Virus record (IMG/VR): IMGVR_UViG_3300046007_000398
Coordinates: 1-28,318 of that record
Strand: one strand, 5' to 3'
Length of the DNA stretch: 28,318 bases
Source: a virus
A model generated the notes under the pieces. The model was not told where the DNA came from and made no database searches. It saw only the letters and a list, made by a program, of their open reading frames with translations. Shown here in pieces: positions 7,656 through 18,523 of the stretch. Numbering within the stretch: position 1 is the first letter of the stretch; every line of letters starts with the position of its first letter. The translations under genes were made by a program, and so were the position numbers.

Positions 7656-8102
7656 ATGAACTTCGATATCTCACTTGTCCCCTACGGCCAGATTACTTAT
7701 CTGGTGCCGTCCTTGATCAAATATTTTCAGGAATCTGAAGGTTGGACTAAGGGTCGGGCGAGCATCGATGACATCGTTCGGTTTGCGTTAACCGGGCAGA
7801 TGCAGTTATGGGCAGTGTTTGATCCGAAAGACAATGACACAATACACGGTTACGTCATGACGGAGATCAAACAGTACCCACAGAAGAAGATGTTTGTCAT
7901 TCAGTACTGCGCGATGAACCCTAATCATATGCAGTATGTTGACGACATCATGCACAAAACTGCAGATCAATTTGCAAAAGATGCAGGTTGTTCTGGCATT
8001 GAATTCTACGGTCGCCCCGGATGGGAACCGCATGTTAAGAAACGCGGGTACACCGTGAAAACGGTGGTGTACGAAAAGCATTTTGATGGAGTAGAACCAT
8101 GA
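7656..8102 (+). CDS. GNAT-fold-like protein (candidate T7 gp13-like virion factor)
   Basis: This 148-residue protein has the strand-helix order of GNAT acetyltransferases: an N-terminal helix pair (LVPSLIKYFQES, SIDDIVRFALTG), strands AVFD/IHGYVMTEI/FVIQYCAMN, a long helix (YVDDIMHKTADQFAKDAG), strand CSGIEFYGRPGW and the terminal KKRGYTVKTVVYEKHF, the 'G(F/Y)' strand typical of the fold. The acetyl-CoA loop (Q/R-x-x-G-x-G/A) is missing: the matching place reads NPNHMQYVDD, so catalysis is doubtful. It lies just before the three large presumed ejection proteins, the position of gene 13 in T7, where a small protein of similar size assists core assembly. No clear Shine-Dalgarno precedes ATG 7656, six bases after the previous stop, suggesting coupled translation. 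Fold assignment is moderate; role inferred. Confidence 0.5.
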   Translation: MNFDISLVPYGQITYLVPSLIKYFQESEGWTKGRASIDDIVRFALTGQMQLWAVFDPKDNDTIHGYVMTEIKQYPQKKMFVIQYCAMNPNHMQYVDDIMHKTADQFAKDAGCSGIEFYGRPGWEPHVKKRGYTVKTVVYEKHFDGVEP

Positions 8103-10045
8103 GTAGTGGCGGCGGCGGCGGTGCACCTCAACCAACCAATCAAACAGTAACTCAGGTCACGATACCGCCTGAGTTGATGCCGTATGCCAAGAAAACTCTT
8201 GGCACTGCGGAAAGTCTTGTTTACGGCAAACCGTACGAAACCTTCCAAGGTCAGCGTTTTGCGGGGCTTAACCCCCTCCAGATGCAGGCCATGCAGCAGA
8301 TTCAGCAGCAGCAACTTGCACCTCAGATAGGTCAAGCGACTGGTATGGCAGGACTTGCTGGCCTGCAGGCGCAACAACTGGGTCAATACGCCCCTTCGCA
8401 GTATCAAGGACTGGACGTTAGTTATCTTGGCGCACAGGCTCCCAATCTGCAGCAATACCAGATGGGGCCTGCAGAGCGCGTTAAGGCGGATACTGTGGCT
8501 GCTCAACAGTTGCAGCAATATCAAATGGAGGGGCCGGAAAGCGTTGCGGCTCAAACTGATTTTGGTTCTGTCTCTGCGCCCGGTCTTCGTGACATTCAGA
8601 TGGGCGGGCCACAACAGGTTCAAGCACCGTCCGATCTTGAGCGACTGCAGATGGGGCCAGCCGAACGTGTCGGCACCCAAGCCCTTGAACAGTACCAGAT
8701 GGGGCCAGCCGAGCAGGTTCAAGCCGAGAAGTTTGGGCTTTCTTCACTTCAGCCGTACATGTCTCCGTACATGCAGGACGTTGTGGAGACTCAGAAACGT
8801 GAGGCGATGCGTGATGCAGCCCGTCAAATGCCGGGTGTGGGCGCTGCCGCTGCACGTGCGGGGGGTCGTGGTGGTAGCCGCGAGGCGCTTCTTCGGTCTG
8901 AATCACAGCGCAACTTGGCTAATCAGTTGCAGGGCATACAGGCTACCGGTACGCAACAGGCGTTCCAGCAGGCTCAGCAGCAGTATGGTGTTGACCGTGC
9001 CCAAGCGTTGCAGGCCGCGCTGGCTAACCAACAAGCGGGTCTTACCACGGGCCAGCAGAATCTGGCTGCACGACTTGGCGTCCAGCAGTTAGGCGCACAA
9101 CAGGGGCTGCAAGCGGCTCTTGCCAATCAGGCAGCGGGTATGCAAGTTGGCCAGCAGAATCTGGCTGCGGCACAGGCTCGTCAGCAGTTGATGGCTCAAC
9201 AAGGTCTAGAGGCTCAGCGGCTCAATCAGGCGGCTGGGCTTACTGCCGGTCAAGCCAATCTGCAAGCCGCACTCCAAACACAAGGGCTTGGCGCACAGCA
9301 GGGTATGCAGGCTGCGTTGGCTAACCAGCAGGCGCGTATTACTGGAGGCCAGATGGGCCTCCAAGCGTCGTTGGCTAACCAGCAGGCTCGACAGAGAGCG
9401 GCTGAGCAGAACCTTCAGGCTAGACTCGGCGTTCAGCAGTTGGGGGCACAGCAAGGGTTGCAGGCAGGACTCGCTAATCAACAGGCTAGAATGCAAGCCG
9501 CACTTGCCAACCAGCAGGCGGGTCTGACCACTGGTCAGCAGAACCTCGCGGCTAGACTCGGTGTTCAGCAGTTGGGAGCGCAGCAGGGTCTACAGGCTCA
9601 GTTGGCTAACCAGCAGTCTCAACTTCAGGCCCAGCAGCAAGCGTTGCAGCAGCGTCAGTTTGGTACCCAGTTTGGCGAACAGTCGCGGCAGTTCGGTGCC
9701 AATCTTGGACTGCAGGGTATTCAGCAGCAATTGGCTGCGGCAGGTATGCTTGGCAATCTGGGACAGCAGCAGTTTGGTCAGCAGCAAGGTATCAACCAAG
9801 CCCAGATGGCTGCGGGGCAGCAACTTCAGGCGCAGGAACAACAGAGGCTGCAAGCAGCATACGAGGACTTCCTTGCTCGTCAGCGTTACCCGTACACTCA
9901 GTTGGGCTTCATGTCTGACCTCATACGCGGTACGCCTACGGCAGGTGGCATCCAGACCATGTATCAAACGCCGCCTAGTATGCTGAGTCAAGTTGCTGGC
10001 GCGGGTCTTGGGTTAGCCGGTCTCTACGGCGCGGGTAGGGGTTAA
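8099..10045 (+). CDS. Gln/Ala-rich helical repeat protein, probable ejection/internal virion protein
   Basis: This 648-residue protein starts by ATGA overlap with the GNAT-like gene, with GGAG upstream. Residues 1-70 contain IPPELMPYAKKTLGTAESLV...YETFQGQRFAGL, a motif I have seen at the N-termini of virion proteins in other aquatic phages. Residues 121-207 carry five Q-M-G/E-G-P repeats. Residues about 210-290 include a conserved-looking block (LQPYMSPYMQDVVETQKREAM..., a glycine-rich AAARAGGRGGSREALL). From 304 to 530 it is an 11-residue repeat array almost free of charge except Arg. The C-terminus has YEDFLARQRYPYTQLGFMSDLIRG and a Gly/Ala-rich hydrophobic tail (VAGAGLGLAGLYGAG). The position and helical nature suggest a T7 gp14-like role in building a DNA conduit; this is inference. 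Confidence 0.65.
   Translation: MSSGGGGGAPQPTNQTVTQVTIPPELMPYAKKTLGTAESLVYGKPYETFQGQRFAGLNPLQMQAMQQIQQQQLAPQIGQATGMAGLAGLQAQQLGQYAPSQYQGLDVSYLGAQAPNLQQYQMGPAERVKADTVAAQQLQQYQMEGPESVAAQTDFGSVSAPGLRDIQMGGPQQVQAPSDLERLQMGPAERVGTQALEQYQMGPAEQVQAEKFGLSSLQPYMSPYMQDVVETQKREAMRDAARQMPGVGAAAARAGGRGGSREALLRSESQRNLANQLQGIQATGTQQAFQQAQQQYGVDRAQALQAALANQQAGLTTGQQNLAARLGVQQLGAQQGLQAALANQAAGMQVGQQNLAAAQARQQLMAQQGLEAQRLNQAAGLTAGQANLQAALQTQGLGAQQGMQAALANQQARITGGQMGLQASLANQQARQRAAEQNLQARLGVQQLGAQQGLQAGLANQQARMQAALANQQAGLTTGQQNLAARLGVQQLGAQQGLQAQLANQQSQLQAQQQALQQRQFGTQFGEQSRQFGANLGLQGIQQQLAAAGMLGNLGQQQFGQQQGINQAQMAAGQQLQAQEQQRLQAAYEDFLARQRYPYTQLGFMSDLIRGTPTAGGIQTMYQTPPSMLSQVAGAGLGLAGLYGAGRG
8459..8719 (+). repeat. 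Five irregular Q-M-x-G-P repeats
   Basis: Codons for YQMGPAERV, YQMEGPESV, IQMGGPQQV, LQMGPAERV and YQMGPAEQV recur at irregular 17- to 28-residue spacing (protein residues 121-207). The nucleotide cores (cagatggggcc) are nearly identical in three copies. The repeats precede the hendecad array and are a separate family. Confidence 0.8.
9008..9688 (+). repeat. Hendecad (11-residue) repeat array, largely in 33-residue units
   Basis: Protein residues 304-530 parse into consecutive 11-mers of three types: LQAALANQQAG, LTTGQQNLAAR and LGVQQLGAQQG. Full 33-residue units occupy 304-336, 337-369, 370-402, 421-453 (variant) and 465-497, with extra single 11-mers at 454-464 and a variant triple at 498-530. 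One break at 414-420 is seven residues long, so the helical phase is kept (11+7=18 residues, five turns). DNA copies are 99 bases long and partly identical. Confidence 0.9.
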
Positions 10046-10056
10046 GGAGAGCAAAC

Positions 10057-11973
10057 ATGGTTGACAAAAACTACAACCCGCTGAATCCGTTTGTCGGGCA
10101 AGTTCAGAAGTTTCTGGACGAGAAAAAAATTCCCGATGATCAGGTTGTACCGTTTCTCATGTCGATGGGCTACCGTGGTCTAGCCGGTGCAGTGGCTAGT
10201 CGGATGCGGCTTGAGAAAGCCAGCGAAGGCTTGAAGGCTCTGCAGCAAGGCCAGAACCAGCCTGCTCCGCCAAACGTGATGCAGGAGAACGAGCAAAAGG
10301 CCCAGCAGGTGCAGCAGCAAGTGCAGCAGGCTATGGCTGGACAGCGCCCCCAGATGCCGCCTCAACAGGCTCAACCTCCCGGCATGGCGGGTGGGGGTAT
10401 CGTTGCATTTAGTAATGGCGGTGGCCCGACTTCTTCCCAAACTTTTGACGAACTTGAAAACATGTTCCGCACCGGTACTCCTGCAGAACAGGCGCGAATA
10501 CTTCAGTGGGCAGAAAAAAATATGCCTACGTTTGCTCAATATTTGAGAAGCCCCGCTGTTGGTAAAATTGCTAGCGGAGCAAAAAAAGTTGCTAAGGGTG
10601 CTCCAGCAATCGGCGGTTTAGCCGGTTTGTATGGCATGTCTCAGACCGACCCTGAAAATTTACAGCGCGAGTCTCGGCTTGCTCAACTTGGTATGGACGT
10701 TGATCCAAGTAGCGCAATGAAAACTTATGCAGCGGGATTAGCGGGTATAGCAGAATCGGCAATACCTTTTGCTGGGCTGTTCTACGACACCCCGCTTGAT
10801 AAAGCACAAGCCGCGTCTGATAAGCGTAGGCAGTCTATTTTGAATGCGCCGGGAGCGCAGACTAACCTCAATCCCCAAGAAACCGGGATTGCTCAAAACT
10901 ACATGGCGATTGTTCGTCAATACGGGGCCAATTCACCCGAAGCCAAAGAGTTTGAAAAGCAATATCGCGGGGCCATGGGCCGCGCTGCGCCGGAAGACGA
11001 AGATGCTTTGAGCCAATACATGGCTCAGTCTGCGGCTGGTGGACGAGGAGCGGGTGGTGGACAAGGTGCAGGTGGTGGGCCGCGTCTGCCTAGCGTTTCT
11101 ACTACAGCACAAGAGACCAAAACATTATCTGATTTGCGTGGACGGCTAAAAGGCATGGAAGATGTATCCAAGCCCGAAGCGCGTGAAGCAGCGATTGACA
11201 GAGAGATTGCTGCCCGTATGAAGCGTTATACCGACATGGGCATCATGAAACCGTTTGACGATGCCAAGGCTAACGTGCAAGGGCGTTTGAAAGAACTTGA
11301 CGGCATCAAGGATAAGAACTTTTACAAGGCTATGGCTATGATGGGTTTCACCATGGCAGGAACCCGTGGGTCGTTCTTCCAAGCCCTTGCAGCCGGTGGC
11401 GCAGCGGGACTGTCAGCCTACGAGACATTTGAAGAACGGCGTCAGGCTACGCTTGATAAGTTGCAAGACCGCATGATGAATATTGACATGGGTATTGCGA
11501 ACATAAAGGAGAGGGCTGGCGCTGGCGCAGAAACGCGGGTAGACAAACTTGAGTCTGAACGCAACCGAGTTCAGGATCAAATTACTAATTTGCAATCGGC
11601 CCAAGAGACACTTGCTCAAACGCAGTCATTCCAACTGGCTTTGGCTGACCGCCAAATTGCCGCCGATGCTGCACGAGACGATTCTCGATTTGGCGGCTTG
11701 GGCAAGGAGATTGAACAGGAAATTAGTCGGCTTCGTCAGATTGAACAAGACCCGAAAGCCCCAGCAAACGTACGCGAAGCGGCGCGTAAACGTAAAGAAA
11801 AACTGTATGAAGAACGTGAACGTGCTACGCAGGTTGGTAGCGGCAGTTACCAGTCTGCACAACTCAAGGCTTTGGCTACGCAGATTCCGGGTTACCCTTA
11901 TTCCCGAATTGGAGATAAAAGCCAAGGTGGCGATACCGGGCTTGAAGACATATTAGCCAAATACGGGTATTGA
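10057..11973 (+). CDS. Coiled-coil virion protein, probable internal/ejection protein
   Basis: This 638-residue protein is preceded by AAGGAG at ideal spacing. Residues 1-60 form a small helical domain (NPFVGQVQKFLDEKKIPDDQVVPFLMSMGYRGLAGAVASRM). A Gln/Pro-rich linker follows, with PPGMAGGGIVAF at about residue 108-118, a motif shared with the 792-residue protein. Residues about 165-260 are Ala/Gly-rich helices with a hydrophobic patch (AAGLAGIAESAIPFAGLFY). A hydrophobic Gly/Ala segment (MGFTMAGTRGSFFQALAAGGAAGL, about 428-451) leads into long charged coiled coils to about 600. The ending, PGYPYSRIGDKSQGG...LEDILAKYGY, is compact. It sits one base before the giant gene and probably assembles with it, as T7 gp15 does with gp16; that comparison is by order and architecture only. 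Confidence 0.6.
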   Translation: MVDKNYNPLNPFVGQVQKFLDEKKIPDDQVVPFLMSMGYRGLAGAVASRMRLEKASEGLKALQQGQNQPAPPNVMQENEQKAQQVQQQVQQAMAGQRPQMPPQQAQPPGMAGGGIVAFSNGGGPTSSQTFDELENMFRTGTPAEQARILQWAEKNMPTFAQYLRSPAVGKIASGAKKVAKGAPAIGGLAGLYGMSQTDPENLQRESRLAQLGMDVDPSSAMKTYAAGLAGIAESAIPFAGLFYDTPLDKAQAASDKRRQSILNAPGAQTNLNPQETGIAQNYMAIVRQYGANSPEAKEFEKQYRGAMGRAAPEDEDALSQYMAQSAAGGRGAGGGQGAGGGPRLPSVSTTAQETKTLSDLRGRLKGMEDVSKPEAREAAIDREIAARMKRYTDMGIMKPFDDAKANVQGRLKELDGIKDKNFYKAMAMMGFTMAGTRGSFFQALAAGGAAGLSAYETFEERRQATLDKLQDRMMNIDMGIANIKERAGAGAETRVDKLESERNRVQDQITNLQSAQETLAQTQSFQLALADRQIAADAARDDSRFGGLGKEIEQEISRLRQIEQDPKAPANVREAARKRKEKLYEERERATQVGSGSYQSAQLKALATQIPGYPYSRIGDKSQGGDTGLEDILAKYGY

Positions 11974-11974
11974 A

Positions 11975-14900
11975 ATGGCAACGCTTGAACAGATTGCCGC
12001 TGCTTTACGTAGAGCAGATCAGGCTGGAGACGTTGAGGCTGCTCAACGGTTGGCCGCTGCATACCGTGCGCTACAAGCAAAAAGCCGCACTGAACAAGCC
12101 GGGTTTCTTGAGTCTTTCCGTGAGTCGGCACTTGGGCTAGGTAAGGCTCCAGAGGCTGCACGTTTTGCAGCGGCTGAACCCGGCACGGATGAGGCTAGAA
12201 AAGCCTTCCTTGAGGCGAATCGTCCCAAGAAAGAAACGACTAGTTTTGAGGAAGTCAAAGACCTTTCCTCGCTTGCTGACTGGGCCAAGCAAACCGCCGG
12301 TACTTCGGCGGGTTATCTCGTTGCTCCTGCCGCTGCCGCTACGGTCGGCAAAATGCTTACCAAAGCCCCCGGTGCCGCCAAGGCTCTGGGCTACGGCACC
12401 CTTGGAGCGCAGTACCTTATTGAGAATCTGGGTCGCCAAGCAGCGGCGCAAGAAGAACAAATACAGCGTGGTGAAGGCCCGTCTGAAACGTCGCTGGCTA
12501 AAGCCGGTGCTGCTGCAGCAGGACAAACGGCGCTGGACGCTGTGGGTATCAAGTTCTTCCAGCCATTGTTTGGGCGATTCCCAATCTTGAGAAATCTGCT
12601 TGGCGAGTCTGGAGAAAAAGCCGCCAAGGAAGCCGAAGATGCGTTGCTTGAATCCGTGCGTAACCAAACTTTGCGCGGTCGAACAGGCATTTTAACAGGT
12701 GCAGCCAAGGGCGCGGCCTTTGAGATTCCACAAGAAATTGCTCAATCAATGCTTGAACGGGCGCAGGCTGGCCTTTCACTGACTGACCCCGATGCACGGC
12801 GCGAATACTACGAGGCTGCGGCAGGTGCCGTGCTTTTGGGTGCGCCGCTTGGCGGCATGTCGCGCTATTACCAGAACCAAGCCAAAATTGAAGAGGCCCA
12901 ACAGATTCAGTTTGCTCGTGAAATTGAGCGGGAAGAAGCGCGTCAGAAGGCCAAGGTACGCGAGAAAGAAGAAGTCGAAGAGAAGCGCGAGGCCGAGAAA
13001 GGCACCAAGAAGGAACTCCGCGAGGCCAAGATTAATGAGCAGTTAGATGCTGCCAGAAGCCTGCTTTTTGGGCTAACTAATCCCGATGGCACGCCGCTTA
13101 CAACCGAGACTGAACCCGGTCAGTTTGAGAGAGCATTGATTAGTTCAGGTATACCGGCAAAAAATGCAGACTCGTTACTCAGAAAACTTAGGCGTGAGTC
13201 TGTTGTTACTGAACGTAACCCTGTTACCGGTATTCGTAGCCTCATTCCCGAGGCCAAGCAGTATGATTTGACGAAGGGCGAAGAGGCTGCACCGCCTCCC
13301 GCTGTCACACCGGCTGCAGATGAAAAAGTTAAACCAGCAACTGCGGCGGCTACTGTCACTGCACCGCAAGGAGTCACATCCGATGAATCAGCAAGAGTGG
13401 CAACTTCAGCAGCAGGTACTACAGAAACTGACGGTGGAGCAGGTGGAGCAGGCGCTGCACAGTTTGTACAGCAGCGAGGAGCCGAAAGACCCGCTGTTAC
13501 AGCGGTTGCAGATACCGGAGTGGTTGGTGCTGGTGAGACTGTTGAACAACCTGCTGTTGGAAAAAAGCCAGTCAAGTCTTCACTAGACGAGACCAAACTT
13601 GAAAAGTGGCAAGCGCGGTTTGAAAAGACCCGCTCCCGCTTTGATGAGGCTGACCCCGAGTCACCTATCAACTTGGTCAATCGTATCAATGAACTGAAGC
13701 AGAAACTGCCTGCTGGCGAGGGCGTTAAGTACACCACCGACATAGAAGATATTGTTTCTTATCTCCGCAAAGGTGCAGACCTTGAGACCGTGGCCGACAA
13801 AGTTGGCATCGATATGCCTGTTCTTGAGGGCTATCTGGACGATCTGCGCGAAGCCGGTATTGTCACGCAAGACAATCAACTTGACCCCGATGCTTTCGTA
13901 GCCAGAAAAACGACCACCAAAACGGGCGAAAAAGGCCGCACTGTTGAGTCTGACTATGATCGGTTTTTGATGCAGAACGAGACGCCGATACTGACGGCTG
14001 TCCGTTCACTTGATGACATCGTTGAAAAGTATGACGCCGATGGCGTGATTGAAAACACGGGTGATGTCCGTGCCCGTATTCGTGAGCGTCTTGATCAAAT
14101 TGACCGCAGCATTGCTGATGAGCAAGCCCGTCGCGCTGCCCGTCGCGCCGTTGAAGGTGAGCGAGTCAGTGCCGAAACCGAAACTGAACTAAACGAAAGA
14201 GAAATTGTTGCGAAGCAACGCGCAGATAGTCGTACCGAATCGGCAGATCAAGCCGCTGGCATGGGGCCAGTAGTAAGCGGTGAACTGAGCAAAGCAAACG
14301 TAAGTTTGAAAGCCGTTGACCAGCAGGTTCGTGATGCTGTTGTACAAAAAGACGCGAACAAACTTCTTGATACCTTGTACGACCTCAATACCGAACTTGG
14401 CAACGCCATTCCGGTAGGCGAAGCCCCGGCTCCGCAGGTCGAGCGCGTCAAGCGCGTGCCAAAAGAGATGACCAAGGGTCAACGTGCCAAGTTGATCCGT
14501 GATTTGTTTGAGAAAACTGCCGCTACAGCCGAAAACACTGGGGTTGTACAAGGCCGAGAGAGGCCCGGTGTAGCCATATCTGAGCGTGGCGCGGCCAAGC
14601 GCAGGATCGACGTAACCAAATCTCTAATCGATACGCTGAGAAAGGTTGACCTTAGCGATCTGACGTTTGAATTGGAAGGCGAACCGGATGTAAACGTCGA
14701 AGCGTTTGACCGGATGCGTAACCAAAACCGGCTTGCCGAGTATGACCCACAGAGCAACGTCATCCGGCTACGTACGGACGGGGTAAAGCAAAAAACCCTT
14801 TTGCACGAAATGGTTCACGCCGTTACCGTGAAAGTGTTGCGGCAGTACGAAACCGCCCCCGATTCGCTGCCCGAGAACCAACGCGAAGCGGCTGAACACC

Positions 14901-17900
14901 TCAACAAGATTTACGCGCTTGCAAACAAGAAACTGCGTACGCGGTATCCGAATGCATTTGAAAACGTCTACGAGTTTGTCTCGTATGCGATGACCGACAA
15001 CGCTTTCCAGAAAGACTTGTCCGAGATGCGTTCGCCCAACTTGGCGAAGTATGCAGTCAAAGCGGTCAAAGACCTCTGGACGCAGTTTGTCGAGTCCTTG
15101 ATGCACATGTTTGATCTTGTGCCGCTTGGTGACAACGAAGCACAGGCACAGGCGGAGAAGGCTATCGCGCTTGAGCGCGAGATCAACGACCCGAATACAT
15201 CAGAAAGCAAAAAGAACTTCCTGCGGCAGCAGTTGGCGCGTATCCGCCGCGAGTCCATCAAGACGCGAGAAGGGAACCTCCTGCTTGAGACTGCCGGTGC
15301 GTTTGAAGAAATCGTCTCCCCGCCGCAGAAAGGCGTAGACGTTGCCCCTCTTGCTGCCAAGGCCGCGCCCCTTGCCGAAGAGCGTGGGGTAGCCAAGATA
15401 AAGCGCGAATACCGCACCAAACTAGACAACAAACACCCGACAGAACCTGCCATTCGTGGCGCGGTTAAGTTCTTGAAGACCCATGAAGGTTCGGAGTGGC
15501 TGATCCGCAAGTTCCAGAACGACCGTCGTCCACTCAAGACGCTGCAGGATGCGCTTGTTCGGGCAGGGAAACTGATTGTTGGCGAAGAGAACTTCAACAA
15601 TCTCTACAGCCTTATCTCGCTCTCCTCTGGTAATGCGTTCCACGTAATGACGCAGTACTTCCAGAAAGATACGCACGATGTTCATGAGGCTATCGAAGCC
15701 TACGCCAAGGCAAACAACATCAACATCATGGATGCGTTGAGTGACCTCAATTTGTACATGATTGCCCGGCACGAACCGGAACGTCGTCTGATCAAGTTCT
15801 TGCGTAACGTACCGCTTGACGACACCAAGTTGATAACTAGATTTGGTTTGACAACAACCGCTGCCAAGCATCGACAGAAGATTTTTGAGATGCTGCGTAC
15901 TAACGTCAAACTGACCAAGGATCAAGCCTTAAAGTTACGCGAGTTTGTTGAAGAACTTGCCGGGTACAAGGATGGCAAACGGGTCGGCAACGGGTCAGTC
16001 GATACTACGGCTGGCAAGTCTATGGACAAGCGTACCAAGCCGGGCAAGTACACGGACAGAATTGAAGACGGTGCGTACAACGTAGCGGGTGAGTTCACGC
16101 CAAGCGAGTTGGAGAGTCTGCGTAACGCATATCAAAACGATAAACAGAAAGTCTTGATCGACCGCATGATCAAGGCGATGGACAACATTCAGAAGAACAC
16201 GATTGAACAGGATCGGCGTGCTAACTATTGGTCGCAGCCTGTAGATAACATCGTCAACTTCTACAACTTCAAGAACTACGTGCCGCTCAAGGGCAAGCCC
16301 GGACAGCCCGAGACCGAAGACGAGAGCGAGTACAACTATACTGGCAAGCGATTGAGTGGTGAGTTGGCCGAGACTCCGCAGTCGTTTGAGGGCCGTATTA
16401 CTGACGCCGATAACGTCATCATGCAGACGCTCGTCGATGGAGCGAAATCTGCAATGCGTGCGGGCCGTAAAGATGTGACCCAAGCAATTAAAAACTTAAT
16501 TGACCAAGGTCTGATTGACGGCGTAAACCTGAACGGTGGCAGGAAGGGTAAACCAATACCGTTCCAAGATCGTGAGAGCGAACTGGAGCGAGCCAAGTAC
16601 AAGGGTGATGACAAGATTTATCACTACAACCCAGACGGTTCAGTCGAAGTTCTCAAGATCAACGATAAGAAGACGCTTGAGTCTATTCGCCGTGCCTACC
16701 GTGATAAGTCGCCGTTCATTGACATGGCCAACCGTATCACAAGCGGTATCGGGCAGTTCCACACCCGGTACAACCCGGCGTTCCACCCGTACAACTTTGT
16801 CCGTGACGTACTGACCAACGCCTTCACGTTGGGGGCTGAATTTGGGCCAGATAAGTCGCTGAAGTTTATTGGGCATATTTCGACCCGAGTTGCTGAAGGT
16901 GGCATGGCTAAAGCAGCCAAAGTCTCAAAACTCTATGCCGATGGCGATGTTGGCCAGATTGAAAAAATGGCCAAAACAGACCCCTTCATTGGGAGCATAT
17001 TGGAGTACTTACTAGAAGGCGGTCGCGTCTCCTACGTGCAGGGCTTGGCCATTCGTGGCCAGATCGACGAACTTGTACGTGATATCAACCGTGGTAAGTG
17101 GGTTCGCGGCAAAGAGAAGGTCGATAGATGGGTCGATATCTGGACTGACATGTTTGAATTGACGAGCCGCGCTGCTGCTTACGAAACGGCAAAGGCCGAA
17201 GCCTTGGCACGGGGTATGTCAGAGAAAGCGGCACGGCAAGAAGGCGCTGCATACGCCAAGAACCTCGCCAACTTTGAACAAGTCGGTGAGTGGGGTCGCC
17301 AAGCCGGTGCGTTGTTCATGTTCTTCCGGCCTGCCGCGACTGGCGCTATTCGTGCGATTGATGCATTGACCCCGGCGTTTCAAGACGTACAGACCGCTGT
17401 AGACAGACTGCCCGAGGCGATTCGCAAAGACCCTGTTGCGGTCAACCAGTTCAAAGCCAACTTCATGAAGGAGAAGAAAAGTGCCCAAGCGATGGCGCTT
17501 AGCCTCCTTGGAGTCGGGTTCACCCTGTATGTCATGGCGTTTATGGTGGCTGACGATGACGAATTAGGCCGCAACAAAGTGGCTACGGAAGACATGTCGC
17601 TCTGGACGCGCAATTTGCGTCTGCCGCTTGAGTTCTTGGGCGTAGAAAAACTGAAGGACAACTACCTGCAGGTGCCGTGGGGCTTTGGCCTTGGCTCGTT
17701 CTTGGCCATGGGAGCGCAGGTTGGCGGCATGGCGATAGGTAACTCGTCGCTTTCTGATGGCCTTGCCAACGCCACGACTATCGCGCTTGACTCGTTCCTC
17801 CCGCTGCCCGTTGCCCGGTTCAACCCGGCAAACAACTTCCCGGCGTGGATGCTCGACTCACTTGCACCTAGCCTCGTGCGGCCTTTCCTTGAGTACACCA

Positions 17901-18523
17901 TGAACGTCGATACGTTCGGGCGCGAAATCTACAACAACAGACTGAGCCGGTATGGCGATGCCTACACGGGCGGTCGCAACGTGCCAGAGTTGTACAACCA
18001 AGCCGCACGTAAGTTGTTTGAAGCGACTAACGCACAAGTCGATGTGTCACCTAACACAATGTATTTCTTCACCAACAACTATGTTGATGGCTTGAGCCGT
18101 ATCATTCACAACGGCCACGGCATGTTCTTGATGTTGGCAGGTAACAAAGAGTTCGACATCAAGCGTGATCTCATTTTCATGGACAGTTTCTTCGGCAGGA
18201 AGTCCAGTTTCGATGCGCGGCAGTTTGCCGAGGTCGAGCAGTCTATCCAAGAGAAAGAACAGCGACTGCGTACGGTCAAGGACAGGCCAGAACTTTTGCA
18301 GCGTTACTTGGAGTCAAACCCGAACGACCCGGCCCTTGTGTACATCTACAACAAGTTGAAGAACCAACAGTTGAAGGCGATCCGCGAAGAGATGAACAAG
18401 GTCAAGGCTGCAGATTTGACTGTCAAGGAACGTCAAGAACGTCTGAAAGAACTGGAGCGGCTGCGCGACATGACCATGCGTAGCATCATCGACACGTTCA
18501 AGCAATACGGGTTAGAACCCTAG
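11975..18523 (+). CDS. Giant ejection protein with zincin (HExxH) domain and LPD-like C-terminus
   Basis: This 2182-residue polyprotein-like gene starts one base after the previous stop. N-terminus: amphipathic helices (LEQIAAALRRADQAGDVEAAQRLAAAYR), then Gly/Ala hydrophobic helices (about 105-150, 230-300) and a charged coiled coil (about 305-355). A small winged-helix-like piece (about 370-425) and a disordered Ala/Thr/Pro linker follow. Residues 920-1020 look like a zinc peptidase: HEMVH at 944-948, with Glu1000 in YEFVSYAM as the likely third ligand. The middle contains long helical regions. A hydrophobic segment at about 1839-1860 (MALSLLGVGFTLYVMAFMVA) can span a membrane. The last 300 residues (NFPAWMLDSLAPSLVRPFLEY, GREIYNNRLSRYGDAYTGGRNVPELY) resemble 'large polyvalent protein-associated' domains of phage ejection proteins. 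T7 gp16 has a transglycosylase instead. Membrane- and wall-crossing during DNA entry is inferred. Confidence 0.75.
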   Translation: MATLEQIAAALRRADQAGDVEAAQRLAAAYRALQAKSRTEQAGFLESFRESALGLGKAPEAARFAAAEPGTDEARKAFLEANRPKKETTSFEEVKDLSSLADWAKQTAGTSAGYLVAPAAAATVGKMLTKAPGAAKALGYGTLGAQYLIENLGRQAAAQEEQIQRGEGPSETSLAKAGAAAAGQTALDAVGIKFFQPLFGRFPILRNLLGESGEKAAKEAEDALLESVRNQTLRGRTGILTGAAKGAAFEIPQEIAQSMLERAQAGLSLTDPDARREYYEAAAGAVLLGAPLGGMSRYYQNQAKIEEAQQIQFAREIEREEARQKAKVREKEEVEEKREAEKGTKKELREAKINEQLDAARSLLFGLTNPDGTPLTTETEPGQFERALISSGIPAKNADSLLRKLRRESVVTERNPVTGIRSLIPEAKQYDLTKGEEAAPPPAVTPAADEKVKPATAAATVTAPQGVTSDESARVATSAAGTTETDGGAGGAGAAQFVQQRGAERPAVTAVADTGVVGAGETVEQPAVGKKPVKSSLDETKLEKWQARFEKTRSRFDEADPESPINLVNRINELKQKLPAGEGVKYTTDIEDIVSYLRKGADLETVADKVGIDMPVLEGYLDDLREAGIVTQDNQLDPDAFVARKTTTKTGEKGRTVESDYDRFLMQNETPILTAVRSLDDIVEKYDADGVIENTGDVRARIRERLDQIDRSIADEQARRAARRAVEGERVSAETETELNEREIVAKQRADSRTESADQAAGMGPVVSGELSKANVSLKAVDQQVRDAVVQKDANKLLDTLYDLNTELGNAIPVGEAPAPQVERVKRVPKEMTKGQRAKLIRDLFEKTAATAENTGVVQGRERPGVAISERGAAKRRIDVTKSLIDTLRKVDLSDLTFELEGEPDVNVEAFDRMRNQNRLAEYDPQSNVIRLRTDGVKQKTLLHEMVHAVTVKVLRQYETAPDSLPENQREAAEHLNKIYALANKKLRTRYPNAFENVYEFVSYAMTDNAFQKDLSEMRSPNLAKYAVKAVKDLWTQFVESLMHMFDLVPLGDNEAQAQAEKAIALEREINDPNTSESKKNFLRQQLARIRRESIKTREGNLLLETAGAFEEIVSPPQKGVDVAPLAAKAAPLAEERGVAKIKREYRTKLDNKHPTEPAIRGAVKFLKTHEGSEWLIRKFQNDRRPLKTLQDALVRAGKLIVGEENFNNLYSLISLSSGNAFHVMTQYFQKDTHDVHEAIEAYAKANNINIMDALSDLNLYMIARHEPERRLIKFLRNVPLDDTKLITRFGLTTTAAKHRQKIFEMLRTNVKLTKDQALKLREFVEELAGYKDGKRVGNGSVDTTAGKSMDKRTKPGKYTDRIEDGAYNVAGEFTPSELESLRNAYQNDKQKVLIDRMIKAMDNIQKNTIEQDRRANYWSQPVDNIVNFYNFKNYVPLKGKPGQPETEDESEYNYTGKRLSGELAETPQSFEGRITDADNVIMQTLVDGAKSAMRAGRKDVTQAIKNLIDQGLIDGVNLNGGRKGKPIPFQDRESELERAKYKGDDKIYHYNPDGSVEVLKINDKKTLESIRRAYRDKSPFIDMANRITSGIGQFHTRYNPAFHPYNFVRDVLTNAFTLGAEFGPDKSLKFIGHISTRVAEGGMAKAAKVSKLYADGDVGQIEKMAKTDPFIGSILEYLLEGGRVSYVQGLAIRGQIDELVRDINRGKWVRGKEKVDRWVDIWTDMFELTSRAAAYETAKAEALARGMSEKAARQEGAAYAKNLANFEQVGEWGRQAGALFMFFRPAATGAIRAIDALTPAFQDVQTAVDRLPEAIRKDPVAVNQFKANFMKEKKSAQAMALSLLGVGFTLYVMAFMVADDDELGRNKVATEDMSLWTRNLRLPLEFLGVEKLKDNYLQVPWGFGLGSFLAMGAQVGGMAIGNSSLSDGLANATTIALDSFLPLPVARFNPANNFPAWMLDSLAPSLVRPFLEYTMNVDTFGREIYNNRLSRYGDAYTGGRNVPELYNQAARKLFEATNAQVDVSPNTMYFFTNNYVDGLSRIIHNGHGMFLMLAGNKEFDIKRDLIFMDSFFGRKSSFDARQFAEVEQSIQEKEQRLRTVKDRPELLQRYLESNPNDPALVYIYNKLKNQQLKAIREEMNKVKAADLTVKERQERLKELERLRDMTMRSIIDTFKQYGLEP

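Follow-up and report, generated by a model that had tools for sequence, protein, structure and literature searches.

Gene context and domain layout of the giant protein

The window, i.e. the whole stretch of 28,318 nucleotides of viral DNA that was analysed (IMG/VR record IMGVR_UViG_3300046007_000398), contains an open reading frame on the + strand (11975..18523) for a giant protein of 2182 amino acids. This gene is the largest in a run of three consecutive genes and the last (third) of them; virion structural genes and probable ejection genes lie upstream of it on the same strand. The first gene of the cluster (8099..10045, +) is a probable ejection gene: its orthologue in a close relative (L002:1442-3382) matched phrog_4287 'DNA ejection protein' with an E-value of 5.6e-6; the window copy itself had no match in PHROGs at E 0.01. 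The second (10057..11973, +) was designated a probable ejection gene by position only, and its product matched no family above cut-off in Pfam or PHROGs. The contig of a near relative carries terminase, portal and major head genes. The product of 8099-10045 contains Gln/Ala-rich repeats of the LGAQQGLQAALANQQAG type. A lysozyme gene, a typical lysis gene separate from the giant gene, is located at 825-1367, and a GIY-YIG endonuclease gene (407-895) lies between the lysozyme gene and the first (truncated) open reading frame and overlaps the beginning of the lysozyme frame.

Two domains were located in the giant protein. Residues 1894-2046 (17654..18112, +) matched the Pfam family LPD38 (PF18857; E 3.5e-11, 44 bits, cut-off 27), which was present in all 22 full-length proteins that we aligned. 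Residues ~870-1046 (14582..15112, +) were assigned to a zincin-type metallopeptidase domain on the basis of an AlphaFold2 model, VIA-align comparisons and a match to phrog_2206. This domain includes the sequence HEMVH at residues 944-948 (14804..14818, +), with the presumed zinc ligands His944 and His948 and the presumed general base Glu945, and Glu1000 (14972..14974, +), the presumed third ligand, in the following helix. The initial annotation had placed Glu1000 in YEFVSYAM, 52 residues past His948, and translation of the open reading frame showed both positions to be exact. As in polyvalent proteins, we are dealing with a very large multidomain phage protein that combines LPD38 with a zincin and is encoded among late virion genes. 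Its earlier description as a giant ejection protein agrees with the gene context, namely the three-gene cluster, the phrog_4287-matching orthologue of the first gene and LPD38, so that this label is supported but not proven. From the homologues phiKMV gp37 and PhiM1 TEP we infer that the giant protein would be present in the virion and ejected.

Conservation of the HExxH site

HEMVH is the sole HExxH sequence in the 2182 residues; the amino acid composition predicts 0.011 occurrences per protein, and the motif was found in 0.8% of shuffled copies. Because relatives should not be chosen by the motif, we searched for them with residues 1560-1799 as the query, which lie more than 600 residues away from it. 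The search yielded 69 loci, six of which end before the motif and 63 of which reach the motif region; the latter include near-identical contigs and therefore represent fewer than 63 independent lineages. Loss of HExxH in close homologues, which the initial annotation had named as evidence that would speak against a peptidase, was not seen: the motif was kept in 62 of the 63 relatives covering the region. The only exception, L056, has HEAVGH, a HExxxH form, which is a described variant of polyvalent-protein metallopeptidases (MPTases) (Iyer et al. 2017, PMC5512222).

An alignment of 22 full-length proteins (the window protein and 21 relatives gathered without the motif) contained eight invariant positions within residues 1-1100: M1, E254, G293, H944, E945, H948, L965 and E1000. 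The probability that all four motif residues would be among these eight by chance is ~1e-9. In a 56-sequence alignment of the domain, the only invariant columns were H944, E945, H948 and E1000; the rows had been selected by HExxH, and therefore E1000 is the sole independent test in that alignment. A chance occurrence of HExxH was ruled out, because these four residues are invariant in the 56 domain rows and in the 22 full-length proteins, and by the rarity of the motif in shuffled copies. The dN/dS ratio was 0.04-0.06 in the domain versus ~0.2 in the upstream linker (residues 331-880), these values being rough since dS was near or above saturation. Residues 301-900, just before the domain, are poorly conserved.

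The domain itself occupies a constant location, at 0.42-0.48 of the protein length. Some relatives have another form of the site, e.g. LHELTHYMADH, in which the surroundings vary and the ligands are constant. In L056 (L056:3720-9932) the HExxxH form is found at the same place of the giant protein, and the others have HExxH, in two sequence types. Such variant site forms at one place of the protein suggest domain replacement at a fixed position. Outside the domain, H1266, E1269 and R1270 (HEPERR; window 15770-15784, residues 1266-1270) are invariant in 22/22 full-length proteins, in a region without a Pfam domain.

Predicted fold and relationship to virion proteins

The initial annotation had called for structure prediction against zincins. 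The AlphaFold2 model of residues 854-1093 had a mean pLDDT of 86.3, with values above 90 across most of the core, and placed HExxH in one helix (86-107 in the model) and Glu1000 in the following conserved helix (145-154), the arrangement that characterizes zincins with a Glu third ligand. A Foldseek search of the PDB with the predicted domain yielded no significant hit (best E 0.29; none below 0.001). With VIA-align, the top match was the C1 domain of the N4 virion RNA polymerase gp50 (Z 7.8, 165 residues, rmsd 4.0, chain residues 2146-2358), followed by many anthrax lethal factor catalytic domains (Z 5.0-5.5) and, further down the list, by Pro-Pro endopeptidases (PPEP; Z 4.3-4.7). Ranks 1-19 were all zincins or the N4 HExxH domain. 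The predicted fold thus appears to match zincins, with every Z below 8, a score that, taken alone, would not settle the matter. Foldseek against BFVD returned five matches below 0.001, all to large phage proteins, one of which has an LT_GEWL domain.

The likeness to the anthrax lethal factor catalytic domain and the Pro-Pro endopeptidases would lie in the overall zincin fold and in a Glu third ligand in the following helix, and it is weak (Z 4-5.5). In the lethal factor/PPEP group, an active-site Tyr stands about 7 residues before the third ligand. A Tyr at E-7 or E-9 was found in 32 of the 56 domain rows, compared with a background of 19%; a catalytic Tyr of the lethal factor type is thus not a general feature of the domain, in contrast to those enzymes.

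Sequence profiles provided evidence that is independent of the fold. No PHROGs family matched the whole giant protein at E 0.01, and only the isolated domain gave a match, to phrog_2206 'virion RNA polymerase' over the corresponding stretch (E 1.3e-13). The domain profile also matched phiKMV gp37 (9sfn; E 3e-26), PhiM1 TEP (8vb2; E 5e-12) and a virion RNA polymerase (11fw; E 6e-7). No peptidase model in Pfam scored above its own cut-off with either the 2182-residue protein or the isolated domain, and neither NCBIfam nor the plasmid records searched gave a match. The invariant ligands and the predicted fold, together with profile matches to virion proteins of solved structure, support the zincin reading of the initial annotation. 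In Vibrio phage PG11, the virion RNA polymerase has two HExxH sites ~240 residues apart (HELVH, L013:2079; HEMTH, L013:2790).

The domain is a zincin metallopeptidase of the phage-type polyvalent-protein kind, a kind that is already known: zincin-like MPTase domains of phage polyvalent proteins were described in 2017 in 12 clades, as the commonest domain of these proteins, and the HExxH of the N4 polymerase was remarked upon in the same work (Iyer et al., PMC5512222). Our protein resembles them in its very large size, in combining an LPD domain with a HExxH helix and a Glu in the next conserved helix, and in the HExxxH variant of L056. The C1 domain of N4 gp50 (residues 2124-2375; PMC12633501) is both the best structural match and a relative by the phrog_2206 profile; however, N4 fuses its zincin-like domain to an RNA polymerase, whereas no polymerase family matched in the giant protein. 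phiKMV gp37 (9sfn chain G; 1337 aa) and PhiM1 TEP (8vb2 chain A; 1263 aa) carry a homologous HExxH...E domain in a gp16-like ejection protein, but they are shorter, have no LPD38 hit and are annotated or published as endolysin-like, not as peptidases.

Proposed role and alternative explanations

We propose, with a probability of roughly three in four, that residues ~870-1046 form a catalytic, zinc-binding zincin of the polyvalent type, within a protein that travels in the head and is ejected together with the DNA. The observed basis consists of the sequence, the predicted fold, the kinship to virion proteins and the strong conservation of the catalytic residues, and from it we infer that the domain binds zinc, cleaves peptides and acts after ejection, and that this particular protein is packaged. 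A zinc ion would be held by His944, His948 and Glu1000, and Glu945 would activate the attacking water. Built into the giant protein, the zincin domain would be packaged in the head and then leave it along with the DNA, and its most likely use would be the cleavage of a protein met during entry. We see an even chance that the target is a host protein; the ejectosome itself, once out of the head, is a less probable substrate, and the data do not separate the two well. No functional test of such a virion zincin was found in the open-licence literature.

Two observations on related phages bear on the time of action. The virion RNA polymerase of N4, which has the same domain, is packaged without prior processing (PMC5512222), and the PhiM1 domain was resolved inside the mature ejectosome (PMC11440229), so that use after ejection fits better than use in maturation. 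The domain is probably catalytic and probably acts after ejection. The same observations weigh against self-processing, in which the zincin would, either before packaging or on entry, cut the giant protein or the ejection proteins that accompany it and thereby free or re-arrange their parts. Self-processing is predicted for polyvalent MPTases generally and stressed by Iyer et al., who cite phage P1 DdrB as a protein processed before packaging (PMC5512222), and the constant position of the domain, adjoining poorly conserved residues that could be cut, would suit it. However, the unprocessed N4 polymerase argues against cleavage before packaging, the PhiM1 ejectosome in which the domain was resolved is intact, and the 22 full-length proteins showed no further enzymatic domain that would have to be released. 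There is no sign of self-processing here, and we consider it less likely than not.

A structural zinc site, in which the fold would serve stability or a controlled unfolding during passage through the tail and would have no peptidase activity, is less probable still. An ejection protein has to pass a narrow tail channel, and the authors of the cryo-EM study of N4 described C1 only through its HExxH, attaching no activity to it. The general-base Glu of known zincins does not bind zinc; a structural site would not need Glu945, yet this residue is as invariant as the ligands, which favours catalysis over a structural role.

The initial annotation had also suggested the processing of head proteins, and the gene does lie among virion genes of the + strand. 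A protease that matures the head by trimming capsid or scaffold proteins is nevertheless very improbable, because a head gene on the contig of a near relative matches families of two kinds, 'major head protein' and 'head maturation protease', so that another candidate for this function exists, and because the best-matching families of our domain are virion or ejection proteins, not maturation proteases.

The endolysin label and the contrast with T7

A peptidoglycan hydrolase (endolysin or transglycosylase) is the least credible reading: it is favoured by the name of phrog_342, 'internal virion protein with endolysin domain', and by the description of PhiM1 TEP Asp268-Asp528 as 'endolysin/exotransglycosidase-like', derived from BLASTP and DALI (PMC11440229), but no SLT or lysozyme model matched the window protein or its relatives, the SLT domain of Titan-X Tit39 is N-terminal and separate (residues 13-126) from the zincin (HEMLH at 672), and phiKMV gp37 and PhiM1 TEP lack the SLT part of phrog_342. 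This last point follows from the starts of the phrog_342 alignment, at position 7 in Titan-X, where the SLT domain is located, at 168 in phiKMV gp37 and at 192 in PhiM1 TEP. A transglycosylase hidden in the giant protein, as in T7 gp16, was rejected after no SLT or lysozyme Pfam model matched in the 22 proteins.

T7 gp16 has a transglycosylase (PMC8954989), and the initial annotation had contrasted the peptidase of the giant protein with this activity of T7-like phages. That contrast did not hold, as the same domain occurs in phiKMV gp37 (HEAVH at 423), PhiM1 TEP (HEAAH at 385) and Titan-X Tit39, all from Autographiviridae. Titan-X has both the zincin and the SLT domain in one protein; therefore, peptidase and transglycosylase are not alternatives. 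Two proteins labelled endolysin- or transglycosidase-like carry the zincin and have no SLT region: PhiM1 TEP (L121:7198-10986) and phiKMV gp37 (L009:3259-7269). As both the HEAAH and the downstream Glu of PhiM1 TEP fall within Asp268-Asp528, a zincin is the more economical reading of this segment, and the 'endolysin/exotransglycosidase-like' domain appears from its sequence to be one. The 'endolysin' label of this domain in phiKMV-like and PhiM1-like ejection proteins is, by the same comparison, a probable mislabel. Such a re-reading was not found in the open-licence literature, subscription papers being outside the scope of our survey.

Three points are new here: the conservation test on relatives collected blind to the motif, the exchange of one site variant for another at a constant location, and the new interpretation of the 'endolysin' domain in proteins of the phiKMV and PhiM1 types. 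Across a large and diverse set of uncultured phages, strict selection maintains the catalytic site of a virion zincin, and this speaks for an enzymatic step that infection requires. We tentatively suggest that many short-tailed phages, including model Autographiviridae with 'endolysin-like' proteins, may need a working protease in the passage of the envelope or just after entry. If this is true, DNA ejection by podophages would generally involve the cleavage of proteins alongside that of peptidoglycan.
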